Assembly: GCA_017420605.1 (NCBI GenBank)
Contig: JAFOIS010000262.1
Coordinates: 1-23,639 of the forward strand
Length of the DNA stretch: 23,639 nucleotides
Reading direction: 5' to 3'
Origin: Lachnospiraceae bacterium
GTDB lineage: Bacteria; Bacillota; Clostridia; Lachnospirales; Lachnospiraceae
The notes under the pieces were generated by a model. It was not told where the DNA came from. It did no database searches and saw nothing but the letters and a program-made list of their open reading frames with translations. Below, one piece after another: positions 3,913-15,638 of this stretch. Each line of letters starts with the position of its first letter. Position 1 is the first letter of the stretch. The translations under genes were made by a program, and so were the position numbers.

Positions 3913-3941
3913 ATTATACGAAATCCGGCTTTTCTTGTCAA
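3913..3941 (-). promoter_or_regulatory. Full-consensus promoter of tRNA-Leu
   Basis: TTGACA (3941-3936), 17 bases, TATAAT (3918-3913): both boxes match sigma-A consensus at every position with ideal spacing. The predicted start near 3906 gives a 45-nt leader before the tRNA. Confidence 0.92.
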
Positions 3942-3988: not shown

Positions 3989-5410
3989 TTACCGGAGCGG
4001 CGCGATCGCATCCAGAATGGTCTTCTCCAGCGCTTCGCGGCCGTACCGGTCCACGGCCGCCTTGTTCTTTTCGCCGTGGGTCAGGTTTCCCGCGCCGCCG
4101 ATGCAGCCGTTCACGCAGGCCATGCCCTCGATGAAATTGGCGTCCAGAAGGTTCCTGCTTTTCTTCATCAGCGCCATCCGGCATTCCTCGATACCGTCGC
4201 AGGCGCAGGCTTTCAGTTCAAAGTCGTCCAGGTGCTGTTCCTTAAGGCCTTCCGCAACCGCGTCGGACAGGCCGCCGCTGCGGGCAAAGATGCGGCCGAA
4301 ATAGCTGGCGTTTTCCAGTACGTCCTCCGGCAGGGCTGTGATATCGATGTCCCGGCTGTCCAGAAGGGCCTGCAGCTCCTCAAAGGTGATCGCGGCGTCC
4401 ACGTAGGGCTTGACGTCGTCGAGCTGCACTTCGGCTTTCTTTGCGGTGCAGGGACCGATGAACACGATCTTCACGTTTTCCTCGTGTTCCCTGATGTACT
4501 TCGCAATAGTGGCCATGGGCGACAGATTGTGCGAGATGTATGGAACGAGCGCCGGGAAAGCGGTTTTGACGTAACGCACGAACGCCGGGCAGCAGGAGGA
4601 GGTAAGGAACCCCTTCTCTGCCAGTTCCTTTGATTCCGCCTGGGCCACCATGTCCGCGCCGAGGGCGGCTTCCACCACGGTGTAGAAGCCGAGTTTCTTG
4701 ATGCCGGAAACGACCTGGCCCAGCTTGGCATACGTCAGCTGGCTGCCGATCGCGGGCGCGACCAGGGCGTAGACCTTGTATGCGGTATTCTCTTCGCTCT
4801 TTTTCAGCAGATCGATCACGTCGATGATGAAGGAACGGTCGCTGATCGCACCGAACGGGCACTGATACACGCACGCGCCGCACTGGATGCACTTTTCGTC
4901 GTCGATCAGGGCGGCGTTGTCCTCGCTGATGGAAATGGCCTTGATCTTGCAGGCGTTCTGGCAGGGGCGCTTGCGGTTGACGATGGCGCTGTAGGGGCAC
5001 ACCTTCGCGCACATCCCGCACTCCACGCACTTGGTCTTGTCGATATGCGCTTCGTGGTTATGGTCAAAGGAGATCGCGCCGCGCCTGCAGGCTTCCTCGC
5101 ACCGGTGCGCAAGGCAGCCCCGGCAGGAATCGGTGACCTGATAGCCCACAGCGGGGCAGTCATCGCAGGCGATATCGATCACGTTGATGATATTGGCGGT
5201 ATTGCCGCCGCCCATGGCCAGTTTGACGCGTTCGGCCAGAATGGCCCGCTCCTTGTACACGCAGCAGCGCATGGTGGGCACCTTGCCGGGCACGATCATC
5301 CGGGGGATGTCCAGCACATTGTCCAGCAGCGTGTCGTTCCACGCCTGCCTGGCCACCTCCCGCAGCACCTTGTATTTCAGATATTGTACCTTGGTATCAA
5401 ACTTGTGCAT
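3989..5410 (-). CDS. [FeFe]-hydrogenase, ferredoxin-type, group-B-like
   Basis: This 473-residue cytoplasmic hydrogenase would interconvert protons and H2 using ferredoxin-like electron transfer. The N-terminal half is a cysteine-rich iron-sulfur region: CRGC and further Cys at about 96-108, then two 4Fe-4S motifs with Cys 128/131/134/138 and 174/177/180/184, and extra Cys at 150 and 154. The H-cluster signatures follow in order: L1 SSCCPAF (Cys273-274), L2 IGPCTAKKAE (Cys321) and L3 MACVNGCIGG (Cys432 and 436). L1 ends in PAF rather than the PxW typical of group A, which with the domain layout points to group B. The start at 5410 has AAGGAG seven bases upstream, 9 bases after the phosphatase stop. 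It is the last gene of a four-gene operon. No hydEFG maturation genes are in the window. Group assignment is from motif recognition. Confidence 0.87.
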   Translation of the reverse strand: MHKFDTKVQYLKYKVLREVARQAWNDTLLDNVLDIPRMIVPGKVPTMRCCVYKERAILAERVKLAMGGGNTANIINVIDIACDDCPAVGYQVTDSCRGCLAHRCEEACRRGAISFDHNHEAHIDKTKCVECGMCAKVCPYSAIVNRKRPCQNACKIKAISISEDNAALIDDEKCIQCGACVYQCPFGAISDRSFIIDVIDLLKKSEENTAYKVYALVAPAIGSQLTYAKLGQVVSGIKKLGFYTVVEAALGADMVAQAESKELAEKGFLTSSCCPAFVRYVKTAFPALVPYISHNLSPMATIAKYIREHEENVKIVFIGPCTAKKAEVQLDDVKPYVDAAITFEELQALLDSRDIDITALPEDVLENASYFGRIFARSGGLSDAVAEGLKEQHLDDFELKACACDGIEECRMALMKKSRNLLDANFIEGMACVNGCIGGAGNLTHGEKNKAAVDRYGREALEKTILDAIAPLR

Positions 5411-5419
5411 GTCCGCTCC

Positions 5420-6589
5420 TTAGAAATAACTGACCTTGATGCGTTTGCCCATCTTTTTCAAAGCTTCCGACAATTCCTTCACAAGGTTCATTTTGATGTT
5501 GAAGTTGATCGGCAGATCGGGATTCTGATGCGCCGGATTGATGGCTTTGCCCACGAAGAAGCTGATGTCGGTGGCTTCCTCGAACAGCAGGCGGCTGATC
5601 CGGGACGCCCCGTCCTTGCCGTTGCTCCAGGTCTCATAGCACGTGTTTTCGCCGATGTAATCCTTGGCATATTCCACCACACGGTTCACGGTGATGACGC
5701 CCTCGGTGACGAGGTCGACGCCGTCGAGGTAGGCGATGGGCGGAATATCGTCCGTGAAATCCAGCGAGGCGCGCAGGGGTTTATTCAGCCATTTGGCGGC
5801 GATGGAGGAGGTCGTACCGCCGCAGATGATGTGTTTTCCTTCCTTTGCGAAGAACAGGTTCATCATCCGGTCGCCGTCATCCCGGTTGCTGGGCGGGCCG
5901 AAAAGCAGGTTCATGGGCACCCTCCTGCGGACGCGCACCACGCAGGCGGTGGCGTCGTCCCCGGGCTTGCCGCCGTAGAGCTTATTGCACTCGTCCACCA
6001 GCAGGGTGGAGAGCGTCTTAGCCGTGTAGCCGCACAGGTTCATGGCCTCCATGAAGGTGATGATGTCCTCCCGCTTCCAGCCGAAGTTGTAGGCCATGCC
6101 GATGCCCGCGTGGGGACAGCCGTCGCTCATGGCGATGAACACGTCGTCCTCCTGAAGGCGGATCAGGGAACGGAAGATCTTCTTGCCGCCGATGGTTACC
6201 TCCGTGCGCGGGTATTCCCAGTTGTCGCCGCCCCGCAGCATGATCACCTGTGGGTTGTCATACTGGATCAGCTCCGCCGTCTGGTTGCGGATCAGGCGGA
6301 TAATGGTGAAGGTGGAATAGGCCACGCCCCGCACCGAACACACCGGCAGCGTCGCGGCGATGGTCTCCACGCATTCCTCGATGGACAGGCCGGCGGCCAG
6401 CATGGTGGAAATGATCTTGCTGGTAAGGGTAGACAGGATGCTGGCTTTCACGCCGCTGCCCAGGCCGTCCGCCAGCACGATCACCGTGGAGCCGTCCTCC
6501 TGCTCCACGACCTCCACATGGTCGCCGCAGAGCTGTTCGCCTTCGTGGTTGATGCTTTTATAGCCGATATCACACGTCAGATCATTCAT
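5420..6589 (-). CDS. SpoIIE/PP2C-type serine/threonine phosphatase with extra C-terminal domain
   Basis: This 389-residue protein has the PP2C/SpoIIE phosphatase fold in about residues 1-222. Metal-binding acidic residues are seen at GDH (D23), LADGLGSG (D41), AMSDGCPH (D156) and PGDDAT (D211-212). Residues about 225-389 form an additional domain I do not recognise; it begins MNLLFGPPSN and contains a conserved-looking HIICGGTTSS segment. No membrane segment is seen. The start overlaps the end of the sensory hydrogenase gene by 8 bases, indicating translational coupling. In this position the phosphatase is most simply the output module of the hydrogenase sensor, dephosphorylating a target not encoded here. 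The partner kinase and substrate are unknown. An anti-anti-sigma type target is possible by analogy with SpoIIE, but nothing here proves it. Confidence 0.87.
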   Translation of the reverse strand: MNDLTCDIGYKSINHEGEQLCGDHVEVVEQEDGSTVIVLADGLGSGVKASILSTLTSKIISTMLAAGLSIEECVETIAATLPVCSVRGVAYSTFTIIRLIRNQTAELIQYDNPQVIMLRGGDNWEYPRTEVTIGGKKIFRSLIRLQEDDVFIAMSDGCPHAGIGMAYNFGWKREDIITFMEAMNLCGYTAKTLSTLLVDECNKLYGGKPGDDATACVVRVRRRVPMNLLFGPPSNRDDGDRMMNLFFAKEGKHIICGGTTSSIAAKWLNKPLRASLDFTDDIPPIAYLDGVDLVTEGVITVNRVVEYAKDYIGENTCYETWSNGKDGASRISRLLFEEATDISFFVGKAINPAHQNPDLPINFNIKMNLVKELSEALKKMGKRIKVSYF

Positions 6590-8264
6590 TGGTAATGGAC
6601 TCCTTCAGCTTGGACAGGGCGATCTTGGTCTCGGCGGCAGTCTCGCCAAGCAGGCTCGCGATCTCCTGTACGATGCGCATCTGCTTGTCCACTACCTTGT
6701 CGGCCACCTCCACGGTCTGGCGGCTGATCTCCTCCCGCGCCCGGCGCTCTTCCTCCTCTTCGCTGACGTCACGCATGATGCAGAGCAGCATCCGCCCGCC
6801 TTCGGCCGGCACGATGGTCTGCTGCACGGTGCAGCCGTACTCCGCGAGGTAGGAACGCTCATGGAAAATACCGCGGCCGGTGTCCCGCACCTTCATGAAA
6901 GGCGTGGGATCCAGGATGCGGATCACCTGATCGCCCAGCACCGCGCTTTCGGAACGCAGGTGAAGGATCTTGAGGGCGGCGGGGTTGATCTGCTGCACCT
7001 CCAGCTGGTCATTGAGCATGATGATGCCGTTGGGGCTGTTGCGGGAGATGGTATCGTTGACATTTTCCGCCTTTTCCATCAGATAGGGCAGACACATCGA
7101 GATCTCCGCCTTGCCCTGGTAAATGGCGATGGCCTTTTCCCGGCAGGTGTCATAACCGCAGGAGCCGCAGTTCAGTTCCTGACTGGGCTTGAACTTGCCC
7201 ATTTCCCGCAGGATCTCCCGGATCTCCGTTTCAGTCGGCATGATGGCCCGCTGCTCAATGGACGCAAAGTTCTTGCGCAGCTTAGCGGCTTCCGGCTGCG
7301 CGATCTCAAAATCCTTTTCTCCGGCGTACCGGGCCACCGCCAGATAATCCTTGAGCGGGCTGTGGCCGTACTTTTCCATCACCGGCCCGCCCGCGCAGCT
7401 GCCCGCGCAGGCGCTCATCTCGATAAAGCAGTGGTGGATCCTGCCCTGCTCGATCTCCTTCAGGGCCGCGATGCAGTTTTCCACGCCGTCCAGCGCCATG
7501 TAACTGTAGTTGGGCGCGCTCATCGCCATGGTCTTTAGGATGCCGCCGGTGGTCGGGAAGAACCTGGCACGGCTGTGCGGATCCGGCTGCTGCTCGCGCT
7601 TCAGCTCGATCCCTTCGTTTTTCAGCCAGTTGGTCAGTTCTTCATAGGTGAGTACCGCGTCCACGATGCCTTCGTAGTATTCGGCTTCGTCCTTCTTGGC
7701 AACGCACGGGCCGATGAAGACGGTCTTCGCGTTCGGGATGCGCCGCTTGATATCCTCGCAGTGGGCCTGCATGGGCGACAGCACGTCCGCAAGATACGGC
7801 AGGACCCGGGGGAAATGTTTCTGGATCAGCAGATTGACGGAATGGCAGCAGGAGGAGATGACCACGTCCCTGTCTTCCTCCATCAGGATACGGTCGTATT
7901 CCCGTTTGACCAGCGTGGCCCCCAGGGCGGTCTCCTCCACGTCGTAGAAGCCCAGTTTTTTCAGCGCTTCCCGCATGGCCTCGATACCGACTCCCTCGTA
8001 GTTGGCCACGAAGGAGGGCGCCAGTGACACCACCACGGGATCGCCGCTCTGAATGAGGACTTTTGTTTTCTCCGTCTCGTCCACGATCTCCTTGGCGTTC
8101 TGGGGGCAGACCACGAAGCAATGACCGCACAGGATGCATTCATTGCCGATGATGTGCGCCTGGTTGCCGGAGAAGCGGATGGACTTCACCGGGCAGTGCC
8201 GGATGCATTTATAGCAGTTTTTGCAGTTGGACTTTTTCAGCGTCAGACAGTTCGCCATTTTCAC
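6582..8264 (-). CDS. hydS: Sensory [FeFe]-hydrogenase (HydS type) with PAS domain
   Basis: This 560-residue protein is a hydrogenase-like sensor. Residues 14-53 carry two 4Fe-4S motifs (Cys 14/17/20/24 and 43/46/49/53). The H-domain follows with L1 SSCCHS (Cys139-140), L2 IGPCVAKKDE (Cys187) and L3 SACAGSCAGGP (Cys286 and 290). A further cluster motif, CGSCGYDTC, lies at 366-374 with Cys391. A PAS domain at about 402-500 includes NGIIMLNDQLEVQQINPAA. The C-terminus (500-555) is helical and charged, probably a signalling coiled coil, and there is no kinase or cyclase domain. This architecture matches group C, proposed H2 sensors. The start at 8264 overlaps the upstream stop as ATGA. The His after the L1 cysteines replaces the Pro of catalytic enzymes, in keeping with low turnover. 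The signal is likely passed to the adjacent phosphatase. Confidence 0.87.
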   Translation of the reverse strand: MKMANCLTLKKSNCKNCYKCIRHCPVKSIRFSGNQAHIIGNECILCGHCFVVCPQNAKEIVDETEKTKVLIQSGDPVVVSLAPSFVANYEGVGIEAMREALKKLGFYDVEETALGATLVKREYDRILMEEDRDVVISSCCHSVNLLIQKHFPRVLPYLADVLSPMQAHCEDIKRRIPNAKTVFIGPCVAKKDEAEYYEGIVDAVLTYEELTNWLKNEGIELKREQQPDPHSRARFFPTTGGILKTMAMSAPNYSYMALDGVENCIAALKEIEQGRIHHCFIEMSACAGSCAGGPVMEKYGHSPLKDYLAVARYAGEKDFEIAQPEAAKLRKNFASIEQRAIMPTETEIREILREMGKFKPSQELNCGSCGYDTCREKAIAIYQGKAEISMCLPYLMEKAENVNDTISRNSPNGIIMLNDQLEVQQINPAALKILHLRSESAVLGDQVIRILDPTPFMKVRDTGRGIFHERSYLAEYGCTVQQTIVPAEGGRMLLCIMRDVSEEEEERRAREEISRQTVEVADKVVDKQMRIVQEIASLLGETAAETKIALSKLKESITNE

Positions 8265-8500
8265 ACCTTCGCTTTCATTTCTTTTTCAAAGAAAGAAGTG
8301 ACCGTTTCCGGCGTTACGGAGAAGAAGTTTCCATCCACCGTGACGCATACACCCTGCTGGCATTTGCCCATGCAGAAGGTGCCGCCAAGTTCGATCCTGT
8401 CGCCCAGATTTTCTTCGGCGATCAGATTCTGCAGTTTCTCCACCACCGGGCGGGAGCCCTTGATGTGGCAGGAGGAGCCGATGCAGACCGTTACTTTCAT
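8261..8500 (-). CDS. Thioredoxin-like [2Fe-2S] ferredoxin (NuoE/HydC C-terminal type)
   Basis: This 79-residue protein is a stand-alone thioredoxin-fold [2Fe-2S] ferredoxin, related to the cluster domain of NuoE and HydC subunits. The four ligands are C6 and C11 (CIGSSC) and C43 and C47 (CMGKC), the expected CX4C...CX3C layout. The length is that of the domain alone, without the N-terminal helical part of NuoE. The start at 8500 has AAAGGAGA eight bases upstream. It is the first gene of the hydrogenase operon and overlaps hydS by four bases (ATGA). It probably carries electrons to or from one of the two hydrogenases, or sets the redox state of the sensor; which of these is not visible. Confidence 0.88.
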   Translation of the reverse strand: MKVTVCIGSSCHIKGSRPVVEKLQNLIAEENLGDRIELGGTFCMGKCQQGVCVTVDGNFFSVTPETVTSFFEKEMKAKV

Positions 8501-8560
8501 TTTTCAGTCTCCTTTTGATTTGAGATGCGGAATGAGACGGGATGCAGAATATTCACCATT

Positions 8561-8592
8561 ATTATATTACGGCAGATTCTGCCTTCCCGCAA
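8561..8592 (-). promoter_or_regulatory. Hydrogenase operon promoter
   Basis: TTGCGG (8592-8587) is followed after 17 bases by TAATAT (8569-8564). An overlapping perfect TATAAT (8566-8561) lies at 20 bases. The spacer is occupied by a palindrome (8571-8583). The leader would be about 55 nt. Confidence 0.6.
8571..8583. promoter_or_regulatory. Palindromic operator candidate inside the hydrogenase promoter spacer
   Basis: GGCAGA and TCTGCC are perfectly inverted around one base and fill the space between the -35 and -10 boxes. A protein bound here would block or twist the promoter. It does not look like the Rex site (TTGTGA-type arms). Confidence 0.5.
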
Positions 8593-13843: not shown

Positions 13844-14791
13844 TTATTTCTTCAGCGCGATGGCCGCTTTCGCCTTCTCGGCGATCTTCGCCGGGGTAAG
13901 GCCGTAGGCTTCGAGGACCGCCGGAGCCTTGCCGCTGCGGCCGAATTCGTCTTCCACGCCGTGGAGGACGACCGGGACCGGGCAGACGCCCGCGATGTAC
14001 TCGGTCACTGCCGCGCCGAGGCCGCCGCAGATGTTGTGCTCTTCGGTGGTGACGATGGCGCCGGTCTCCTGCGCAGCCTTCAGCACGATCTCCTTATCGA
14101 GCGGCTTGATGGTGTGCATGTCGATGACGCGCGCGCTGATGTTTTCCGCCGCGAGGTCAGCGGCCGCCTTCATGGCCATCTGGACCATCATGCCGGTCGC
14201 GATGATCGTCACGTCCGTGCCGTTCTTGAGCATAACGCCCTTGCCGATCTCAAACTTATAATCAAGGACCGTATCGGTCACATTTTCCACCGCCAGACGG
14301 CCGAGGCGCATATAGGCCGGTCCGTCGTAGTTGAGAAGGGCTTCCGTGGCCGCCATCATTTCCGGGCCGTCGCACGGATTCAGGACGGTCATGCCCGGAA
14401 TGGCGCGCATCAGGGCGAAATCCTCGATGCACTGGTGGGTCGCGCCGTCTTCGCCGACGGAAAGGCCGCCGTGCGAACCGATGACCTTTACGTTAAGGCC
14501 CGGATAGCAGATCGAATTGCGGACCTGCTCCCAGCTGCGGCCGGCCGCGAACATCGCGAAGGTGTTGGTGAAGGGCTTCAGGCCGCAGGTCGCAAGACCC
14601 GCCGCGACGCCCTGCATGTCGGCTTCCGCGATCCCCATGTCGAAGAACCGCTCCGGATAGGCTTTCGCGAAGCCGCTCGTCTTGGTGGCGCCGGAAAGAT
14701 CGGCGTCAAGAACCACGAGTTCCGGGTACTTTTCAGCAAGTGCCACAAGCGCTTTTCCGTACGCTTCTCTGGTCGCGATCTTTTCTCCCAT
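13844..14791 (-). CDS. Transketolase, C-terminal subunit
   Basis: This 315-residue subunit holds the pyrimidine-binding and C-terminal domains of a split transketolase. The catalytic Glu that activates thiamine diphosphate is E56 in GIAEADMQG. SHGGLSVGEDGATHQ near residue 110 is the conserved phosphate-site loop. The start at 14791 is chosen because GGAGG lies 9 bases upstream and the ATG comes one base after the stop of the N-terminal subunit; an ATG eleven codons earlier would overlap that gene and has no good ribosome site. Together the two subunits move two-carbon units between sugar phosphates in the non-oxidative pentose phosphate pathway. A role as a related sugar-specific transketolase (for example apulose or another minor sugar) cannot be ruled out from sequence. 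Confidence 0.9.
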   Translation of the reverse strand: MGEKIATREAYGKALVALAEKYPELVVLDADLSGATKTSGFAKAYPERFFDMGIAEADMQGVAAGLATCGLKPFTNTFAMFAAGRSWEQVRNSICYPGLNVKVIGSHGGLSVGEDGATHQCIEDFALMRAIPGMTVLNPCDGPEMMAATEALLNYDGPAYMRLGRLAVENVTDTVLDYKFEIGKGVMLKNGTDVTIIATGMMVQMAMKAAADLAAENISARVIDMHTIKPLDKEIVLKAAQETGAIVTTEEHNICGGLGAAVTEYIAGVCPVPVVLHGVEDEFGRSGKAPAVLEAYGLTPAKIAEKAKAAIALKK

Positions 14792-14792
14792 C

Positions 14793-15638
14793 TTACTCCG
14801 CCTCCAATTCTTTAAGATATGCATCGAGCTCTGCTTCCGCGGTCATGTACTGTTCCTGGTTCGGAGCCGTGCCGTGCCAGCTTGCCTTATCTTCCATGAA
14901 AGAGACGCCCTTGCCCTTGACGGTCTTTGCCAGGATCACAGTGGGCTTTCCCTTGATGGTCGCCGCTTCCGCGAAGGCAGCCTTGATGCAGTCGAAGTCG
15001 TGGCCGTCGATCGTGATGACGTGGCAGCCGAACGATTCGAACTTCTTGTCCTTCGGTTCGGTCGGCATGACGTCCGCCGTCCTGCCGTCGATCTGAAGGC
15101 CGTTGACGTCGACGATGGCGCAGAAGTTGTCGAGTTTATACTTCGCGGCAGCCATCATCGCTTCCCATACCTGGCCTTCCGCGATCTCGCCGTCGCCGAG
15201 GATCGTGTAGACACGGTAATCCTTTTTGTTGATCTTTCCCGCAAGAGCCATGCCGACTGCCGTCGAAACGCCCTGCCCGAGGGAACCGGTCGACATGTCG
15301 ACGCCCTTCACGTAGTTCATTTCCACGTGACCGGACATATGCCCGTCGATACGGCGGAACATGTGCAGCTCCTCCACCGGGAAGAATCCGCGGAGTGCCA
15401 GCACCGGATACATCGCCGGTGCGCAGTGGCCCTTCGACATGACGAAACGGTCGCGGTCCGGATCCTTCGGATTCTCCGGATCGACGTTCATCGTGTCGAA
15501 ATACAGTGTCGTCAGGATGTCAAGACAGCTGAGCGATCCGCCCGGATGTCCAGACGATGCTTCGTACACCATCTGCACGGCCAGTTTACGAGCTTTCGTC
15601 GCTTCGATGGCCAGCTCTTTGTTTGTGCATTTTCCCAT
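14793..15638 (-). CDS. Transketolase, N-terminal subunit
   Basis: This 281-residue subunit binds the diphosphate end of thiamine diphosphate. The motif GDG (148-150) through N179 (VDVNG) is intact, with H31 (SGHPGG) and H71 (SKGHCAPA) as the active-site histidines. The length fits the split-transketolase family rather than the roughly 660-residue fused form. AGAGG lies about nine bases before the ATG at 15638. It is the first gene of a two-gene operon; its stop is separated from the next ATG by one base, so the subunits should be made in equal amounts. The promoter is at 15715-15743, in the gap behind galK. Confidence 0.93.
   Translation of the reverse strand: MGKCTNKELAIEATKARKLAVQMVYEASSGHPGGSLSCLDILTTLYFDTMNVDPENPKDPDRDRFVMSKGHCAPAMYPVLALRGFFPVEELHMFRRIDGHMSGHVEMNYVKGVDMSTGSLGQGVSTAVGMALAGKINKKDYRVYTILGDGEIAEGQVWEAMMAAAKYKLDNFCAIVDVNGLQIDGRTADVMPTEPKDKKFESFGCHVITIDGHDFDCIKAAFAEAATIKGKPTVILAKTVKGKGVSFMEDKASWHGTAPNQEQYMTAEAELDAYLKELEAE

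Follow-up and report, generated by a model that had tools for sequence, protein, structure and literature searches.

A Putative Sensory [FeFe]-Hydrogenase Paired with a SpoIIE-Type Phosphatase in a Lachnospiraceae Operon of the hfsABCD Type

The operon described here lies in a 23,639-nucleotide (nt) stretch of DNA from a Lachnospiraceae bacterium (GenBank assembly GCA_017420605.1, contig JAFOIS010000262.1), called the window. Four minus-strand genes follow one another (Table 1): a small [2Fe-2S] protein, the putative sensory [FeFe]-hydrogenase HydS, a Ser/Thr phosphatase of the SpoIIE/PP2C type, and a HydA2/HfsD-like group B [FeFe]-hydrogenase. An initial annotation, made from the letters alone, had proposed these identities, and each of the four is backed by Pfam or NCBIfam; the PAS domain of HydS alone is sub-threshold. 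The [2Fe-2S] protein, correctly placed first, matches PF01257 at 30.6 bits (Pfam cut-off 24.8), the phosphatase matches PF07228 at 50.9 bits (cut-off 25), and the last gene, said to encode a group-B-like hydrogenase, matches the NCBIfam model TIGR04105 at 560.1 bits (curated cut-off 450). The four genes lie as the annotation placed them from 3989 onward. Its upper boundary, 8592, exceeds the start codon of the [2Fe-2S] gene by about 90 nt, and that interval holds a stop in the same frame. Read from its GTG start, hydS overlaps the [2Fe-2S] gene by 4 nt; read from the in-frame ATG, it begins 2 nt behind it and encodes 558 amino acids (aa), the length of most homologues among the matches listed. 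The 8-base overlap claimed between hydS and the phosphatase gene can be read in the sequence. A 9-nt gap separates the phosphatase gene from that of HydA2, whose ATG is preceded by AAGGAG. A simple scan of the sequence before the operon turned up no sigma-70-like site.

Table 1. Features of the HydS-phosphatase operon in the window and the related loci with a TnpB-like gene
Feature	Position	Strand	Details
[2Fe-2S] protein, thioredoxin-like, HfsA position, first gene	8261..8500	-	79 aa; ATG start; PF01257; Cys pairs in CIGSSC and in CMGKC
HydS, putative sensory [FeFe]-hydrogenase	6582..8264	-	GTG start, 560 aa; in-frame ATG at 8258, 558 aa
Private HydS C-terminal motif	6582..6686	-	KQMRxxQEIASLLGETxAETKxALxKLK; from alignment of 61 HydS
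hydS stop/phosphatase start overlap	6582..6589	-	8 nt; read in sequence
SpoIIE/PP2C-type Ser/Thr phosphatase, HfsC position	5420..6589	-	389 aa; PF07228
Undescribed phosphatase C-terminal domain	5423..5914	-	residues 226-389 (164 residues); invariant GPP, EG, and N.A positions
HydA2/HfsD-like monomeric group B [FeFe]-hydrogenase	3989..5410	-	473 aa; TIGR04105
TnpB-like loci			L067, L071-L075, L077, L078, L080, L081, L085, L087

The window HydS contains an Fe_hyd_lg_C domain (PF02906, 166.9 bits), a 4Fe-4S Fer4 domain, and the FeS motif PF04060. It had been described as PAS-bearing; the hydrogenase and FeS domains stand, and a PAS domain is likely, though weak when taken alone. As had also been stated, no kinase or cyclase domain matched in the domain scan of this protein, nor did a DNA-binding domain. 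The H-cluster ligands Cys 140, 187, 286, and 290 are kept in all 61 aligned HydS proteins, and Cys 366, 369, 374, and 391 toward the C-terminus fit the spacing Cx2Cx4Cx16C. At the sites equivalent to CpI M353 and M497, the window protein has Gly and Ser, the second-sphere residues reported for TmHydS (PMC8163306). The proton-relay position of CpI C299 holds Cys in 42 of the 61, including the window protein; this residue has been called nonconserved in groups C and D (PMC8163306). Judged by its H-cluster domain and phosphatase linkage, the window operon is probably of the [FeFe] group C3 type. HydDB lists this group as putatively phosphatase-linked, with H2 sensing and regulation through a Ser/Thr phosphatase proposed (PMC5037454). 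We found no difference between that description and the window, in which a HydS-type hydrogenase is likewise linked to such a phosphatase.

The pairing of HydS with the phosphatase was examined in 245 Clostridia genomes, which were searched with both proteins. Counting HydS frames of 470-640 aa gave 71 frames in 70 genomes. Fragments below 470 aa (one on G039:C77, two in G108), frames above 640 aa, and the 12 weakest rows (E 2e-43 to 1e-40) were left out; the last are frames of 428-496 aa, three of them 485-496 aa, that match to residue 295-411. The phosphatase set comprises 72 of 77 genomes and omits G021, G048, G111, G134, and G195, where the SpoIIE-like frames are 765-802 aa long. Directly downstream of 69 of the 71 HydS frames, on the same strand, lies the phosphatase, and the window's spacing between the two genes recurs in 27 of these 69 pairs. 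The pairing is therefore not due to chance, and the neighborhood survey that had been suggested as a check on the initial annotation comes out in its favor. The exceptions are G096 and the first HydS of G040, where a tandem pair of hydS genes, each with the C-terminal motif described below, precedes a single phosphatase gene (locus L089). Three of the 72 phosphatase genomes lack a counted HydS neighbor, namely G096, G121, and G108, and in the last of these a partial HydS frame adjoins the phosphatase where the contig ends. In 80 loci drawn from genome contigs, HydS is the next matched gene upstream of the phosphatase in 78, and a HydA2 match is next downstream in 68. One phosphatase (L073) had no open reading frame call in the locus clustering and is present in the genome search. 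When the phosphatase profile was run on a phylum-wide sample, 104 of 348 genomes gave a match (E<=1e-30), and six loci chosen there for long frames or double copies hold seven HydS-phosphatase pairs, all adjacent. Long frames had also suggested phosphatase fusions in G356, G514, and G573. These were rejected: read from a start codon, the first two frames are 388 and 381 aa and lie directly behind HydS, and the third runs upstream into HydS.

The two proteins also carry private regions. The C-terminal motif of HydS (Table 1) is near-invariant in 57 of the 61 aligned proteins. The four with deviating tails (L097-L100) are encoded beside the most divergent phosphatases, which are 22-26% identical to that of the window. 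When the last 61 residues of HydS were used as a query, 69 matches were obtained in 68 of the 245 genomes (E<=1e-4), all within HydS frames of the window type, and the motif is recognized by pattern in five of the seven HydS proteins from the phylum-wide loci. We propose that this segment forms a phosphatase-docking helix. Pairwise distances among HydS proteins correlate with those among their phosphatases (r = 0.87 over 57 pairs, L069 and L089 being omitted), as compared to a maximum of 0.32 in 2000 permutations; the value rises to 0.95 without the four divergent pairs. The HydS of L110 (G057) is unusually built, with 753 aa and Gly/Ala-rich insertions between the conserved parts. It was considered as a fusion of the [2Fe-2S] protein with HydS, which was rejected because its N-terminal extension has no such domain.

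The catalytic part of the phosphatase is conserved, with D41, G42, D156, G157, D211, and D212 invariant across 60 sequences; the acidic motifs D41, D156, D211, and D212 we take to bind metal. The remainder of the protein is a C-terminal domain for which the window sequence matches no Pfam family at E<=1, with only scattered matches for 31 other rows, and no PDB entry better than E 0.16. Structural relatives suggested by these searches were rejected, as the matches are at chance level. Within the 245 genomes, the domain is confined to phosphatases of the window type, apart from one weak match with two stops. The sequence sets behind these comparisons were 60 phosphatases (A1), 54 of 61 HydS proteins (A2), 32 of 60 phosphatases (A3), and 11 of 12 TnpB-like proteins (A4). 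The HydS tail (34 residues) and the phosphatase domain (164 residues), each private to its protein, are compact and well-defined objects for mutation and binding assays. Neither is mentioned in the excerpted accounts of group C3 (PMC5037454).

A different output is found in HydS-like proteins of 873-919 aa from nine genomes, all nine of which have a fused sigma-54 activator and a helix-turn-helix (HTH) region. These HydS-like sigma-54 activators of Clostridiales resemble the window HydS in their sensor part of hydrogenase, FeS, and PAS domains. They differ in that the AAA+ activator/HTH output is fused, and none of the nine has the HydS C-terminal motif or a window-type phosphatase on the same contig. 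Three of the genomes (G019, G110, and G155) hold a phosphatase-type HydS besides the sigma-54 type, so the two outputs are alternatives for each protein and not for each genome. Enhancer-binding proteins (EBPs) with Fe_hyd_lg_C domains are on record (PMC6615313). The claim that the phosphatase is the output of HydS is thus well supported by comparison, through the adjacency of the two genes, the fused activator in the unpaired long proteins, and the correlated distances.

The four gene kinds of the window match, by description, those of the hfsABCD operon of Thermoanaerobacterium, which encodes HfsA, the PAS hydrogenase HfsB, the serine phosphatase HfsC, and the HydA2-like HfsD (PMC11837493, PMC5707799). 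The Thermoanaerobacterium operon differs in having knockout data, whereas that of the window is known from sequence alone. The initial annotation had pointed to similar hydA2/hydS clusters in Ruminococcus. In Ruminococcus albus 7, an eight-gene hydA2-adhE-hydS cluster likewise brings together a ferredoxin-only hydrogenase, a sensory hydrogenase, and a phosphatase, for which the same sensor-phosphatase proposal has been made (PMC6776011). The window operon belongs to a known class already named in the literature, and the idea of a phosphatase output is in print both for HydDB group C3 and for R. albus.

Among relatives, the fourth gene is not constant. Of 61 class-wide loci, 25 have a group B hydrogenase gene after the phosphatase; in others the next gene begins HydC-HydB-HydA (HydC and HydB were each identified on a single representative) or encodes AdhE or another protein, and some contigs end there. 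The stable core is thus [2Fe-2S]-HydS-phosphatase, without the group B hydrogenase. This variability bears on another explanation, in which HydS and the [2Fe-2S] protein are parts of a catalytic hydrogenase complex and the phosphatase is merely cotranscribed. That HfsABC could be a functional hydrogenase without HfsD has been raised as a possibility (PMC13277313), and retention of the proton-relay Cys by the window HydS and by most of its relatives would fit such a role. However, it is the phosphatase that stays beside HydS while the hydrogenase gene varies, a private C-terminal motif is unexpected in a plain enzyme, and deletion of hfsB in T. saccharolyticum raised hydrogenase activity (PMC5707799). 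We consider a purely catalytic role very unlikely.

We favor, at a probability of roughly 0.7, a sensory module of the hfsABCD, group C3 type, in which HydS docks on the phosphatase and alters it, thereby tuning fermentative electron disposal. At its H-cluster, HydS would bind H2 or accept electrons delivered by the [2Fe-2S] protein, and the C-terminal [4Fe-4S]/PAS region would relay the state of the cluster to the terminal helix. That helix may then dock on the phosphatase in trans and change its activity. A PAS-coiled-coil linker works likewise in one-piece PP2C phosphatases such as RsbP. The C-terminal domain of the phosphatase would recognize either HydS or the substrate, and the output would act on genes or enzymes of electron disposal, that is, HydA2 in the window and HydABC or AdhE in relatives. 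Measurement of H2 and switching among H2, acetate, and ethanol in fermenting anaerobes bear on rumen methane and on biofuel yields.

Published genetics speak to this proposal from the Thermoanaerobacterium side. Deletion of hfsA or hfsB in T. saccharolyticum raises the ethanol yield about 1.8-fold together with NADH-linked alcohol dehydrogenase activity, whereas deletion of hfsC, hfsD, or the whole operon gives no ethanol rise (PMC5707799). This epistasis makes it most likely that HydS restrains the rest of the operon (HfsC/HfsD). In T. thermosaccharolyticum lacking hfsABCD, overexpression of hfsD alone brings back high ethanol (PMC11837493), a result that points to the hydrogenase HfsD as the main route of the ethanol effect. 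As recently as 2026, the mechanism of hfsB/C mutations was called not known (PMC13277313), and the statement in the initial annotation that the phosphatase target and the signaling logic are not established still holds.

Several observations weigh against the sensory-module proposal. The same rescue by hfsD implies that the phosphatase is dispensable for the ethanol phenotype. The PAS match in HydS (PF13188, PAS_8) scores 19.8 bits, under the Pfam cut-off of 21.8, and two of the seven HydS proteins from the phylum-wide loci (L223 and L226) lack the C-terminal motif by pattern. In G096, HydS and the phosphatase are about 15 kb apart. In G121 (L095), a one-contig genome, the [2Fe-2S] protein stands directly before the phosphatase and there is no HydS, which was either lost or replaced by another sensor. 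Shared descent also yields a correlation between HydS and phosphatase distances and contributes to the one seen here.

The resemblance of the catalytic part to SpoIIE raises another route for the output. SpoIIE, RsbU, and RsbP act by partner switching on anti-anti-sigma factors, and the phosphatase could analogously dephosphorylate such a factor encoded elsewhere, making the output transcriptional. Its closest solved relatives by sequence, 5mqh and 3t91, are serine phosphatase and SpoIIE entries, and expression of the R. albus cluster equivalent to the window operon is 111-fold lower in coculture (PMC6776011). Against this, no anti-sigma or STAS protein was found among 12 neighbor clusters (one representative of each; no genome-wide search was made), and the C-terminal domain of the phosphatase was not found in the other SpoIIE-type proteins of the 245 genomes. 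A HATPase/RsbW anti-sigma partner next door was rejected on the same scan of neighbor clusters. Partner switching is in our judgment an unlikely output.

In some relatives the operon is longer and includes a candidate opposing kinase. In three of the loci with phosphatases 93-94% identical to that of the window (L143, L145, and L148), the order is LysR-Rex-AdhE-kinase-[2Fe-2S]-HydS-phosphatase-HydA2; in L146 (phosphatase 92% identical), no kinase lies within 6.3 kb upstream. The kinase is APH-like, matching PF01636 and, best among NCBIfam models, TIGR02172 under its cut-off; its PDB matches are weak and mixed. These eight genes equal in number those of the R. albus 7 cluster (PMC6776011). The window copy differs from that cluster in having four genes, in a genome without the kinase or a fused AdhE, and its catalytic enzyme fits the group B model, whereas that of R. 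albus is filed as group A1 (PMC6776011). Of the 80 contig loci, 50 have a kinase match upstream of the [2Fe-2S] gene, 18 have none despite 2.5 kb or more of sequence there, and the remaining 12 could not be assessed. Kinase and [2Fe-2S] matches are separated by 13-331 nt in the 50 loci and by 13-31 nt in 33 of them. Among the 61 class-wide loci, 14 have the kinase, 13 upstream of HydS and one downstream.

These linkages suggest a writer/eraser arrangement in which the phosphatase reverses phosphorylation by the APH-type kinase of AdhE, or of a metabolite that controls AdhE, with HydS setting the balance of ethanol and H2. Beyond its frequent position in the operon, the kinase adjoins adhE in 16 of 20 loci away from HydS (20 of about 40 such strong matches), and the motifs HGD..N and DW are kept in an alignment of 14 kinases. 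It occurs in 26 of the 72 phosphatase genomes and in 30 of the 173 others (p = 0.002, with genomes that are not independent); the kinase set comprises 56 of 60 genomes and omits G049, G067, G188, and G242 (<=36% identity). Changes in adhE expression in T. saccharolyticum are also insufficient to account for all changes in enzyme activity (PMC5707799). Yet 46 of the 72 phosphatase genomes lack the kinase, and AdhE or the kinase was accordingly rejected as a universal partner of the phosphatase. The loci without a kinase despite ample upstream sequence, and the restoration of ethanol by hfsD without the phosphatase, count further against this arrangement. APH-fold kinases, moreover, often act on small molecules. 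The window's genome is among those lacking the kinase, with no match at E<=1e-15, and no fused AdhE was found in it, the best AdhE match being an unfused, closed frame of 560 aa; since the draft assembly is incomplete, these absences are probable. We assign the writer/eraser arrangement a low probability, and the adhE-linked kinase is nonetheless a concrete candidate for the opposing kinase. Pairs of the TIGR02172-like kinase and AdhE away from HydS are exemplified by L051:12315-13067 and its relatives. In the literature excerpts, no account of the kinase-adhE link, the HydS motif, or the phosphatase domain was recognized beyond mention of an "adjacent Ser/Thr protein kinase" in R. albus (PMC5707799).

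A further addition is seen in 12 of the 61 class-wide loci (Table 1), where a TnpB-like protein of 486-539 aa is encoded on the same strand as HydS and the phosphatase. Its gene directly follows that of the phosphatase in nine loci (spacing -14 to 109 nt, with L073 placed from the genome searches); in the other three, adhE intervenes and the distance is about 3 kb. PF07282 (Cas12f1-like TNB domain) is over its cut-off in six of 11 proteins scanned, and a profile retrieves PDB chains of TnpB and Cas12f with E values down to 4.5e-12. Strong matches occur in exactly 12 of the 245 genomes, all at HydS-phosphatase loci; another 12 rows from 10 genomes are weak partial matches that are TnpB-sized or fragments. 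An alignment was made of 132 TnpB-like sequences, consisting of the 12 from the loci and 120 listed of 211 homologues (some of them the same protein), together with five ordinary TnpB proteins. In the column that we take to be the first RuvC Asp, the five ordinary proteins have Asp and all 132 TnpB-like sequences have Ser, Ala, Cys, Gly, Thr, or Val. At the presumed second position, 80 have Gln and 36 Glu, and at the third, 66 have Glu and 62 Asp. Replacement of the first Asp throughout indicates that the nuclease is probably dead.

In all 12 loci, the stop codon of the TnpB-like gene is followed directly by a conserved element whose 3' end, AGCTATCT, lies 76-142 nt past that stop; the element is kept although the genes downstream vary. 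A pseudoknot that joins a hairpin loop (GCTGC) to a site close to the 3' end (GCAGC) can form in all 11 distinct element sequences, and three show changes on both sides, GCTGT/ACAGC (L067) and GCTAC/GTAGC (L072, L085). In the proposed structure, 86% of cells pair, as compared to 19-47% when it is slid. The both-sided changes were matched in 2 of 500 shuffles and the covariation score in 30 of 500; the count of pair types is not above that of shuffles. A covariance model of the element recovered the 12 copies from the 61 loci, and no other match there scored below E 0.18. In the genomes, it gave a single strong copy for each of the 12 and none for the window's genome. No Rfam family reached its gathering score in the two stretches tested. 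A terminator-like hairpin follows about 6-11 nt past the element in the cases read (L071, L072, and L078). Searches of the 12 loci for a guide target gave matches of 9-11 bases, about chance level. A 12-base pattern searched in three genomes hit the element itself in two of them and a single other place in one, at or below the count for the reversed control. Given the hairpin close behind it and the lack of a target match in these searches, the element remains a candidate guide RNA.

This arrangement resembles that of TldR proteins, TnpB-like repressors that lack nuclease activity and have their guide RNA downstream (PMC13418256). Shared features in the 12 relatives are an inactivated RuvC site, linkage to a nontransposon gene, and a conserved RNA-like element behind the gene; the linkage itself differs, being to a hydrogen-sensor operon here and to fliC or csrA for TldR. 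Among the open-licence papers listed in a literature search, none tied TldR or nuclease-dead TnpB to a hydrogenase. We tentatively suggest, as a possibility that the odds do not favor, that some Clostridia operons took in a domesticated nuclease-dead TnpB with a guide-type RNA, which would tie H2 pressure, through HydS and the phosphatase, to RNA-guided control of fermentation genes. If the TldR-like protein and its candidate guide RNA are confirmed, RNA-guided regulation would extend to central metabolism. The window copy is the plain four-gene form without the TnpB-like part.

The host genome is available as a draft assembly of 2.33 Mb (332 contigs, completeness 93.9%). It holds four [FeFe]-hydrogenase matches, two of them in the window. 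The third, on contig C300, has Fe_hyd_SSU and 2Fe-2S domains, and the fourth (L111:8045-9364, contig C192) is a 439-aa protein that has an FeS motif and lacks a PAS match, in line with descriptions of group D. Six SpoIIE-domain matches were found, one under the cut-off. Of the eight other same-family genomes among the matches listed, G243 alone has the phosphatase, at 44% identity, and copies 75-80% identical are present in several genomes of other families. This rarity within the family, set beside close copies outside it, suggests horizontal transfer of the module.

The operon is flanked upstream by a divergent major facilitator superfamily (MFS) transporter gene and downstream by a tRNA-Leu and an MmgE/PrpD-family gene. 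Just before the tRNA-Leu (3861-3776), the minus strand at 3913-3941 has a 12/12 match to a sigma-70-type promoter with a 17-nt spacer, and a terminator-like hairpin lies at 3743-3727. Elsewhere in the window, at 13844-15638, transketolase is split into N-terminal and C-terminal genes that overlap slightly.

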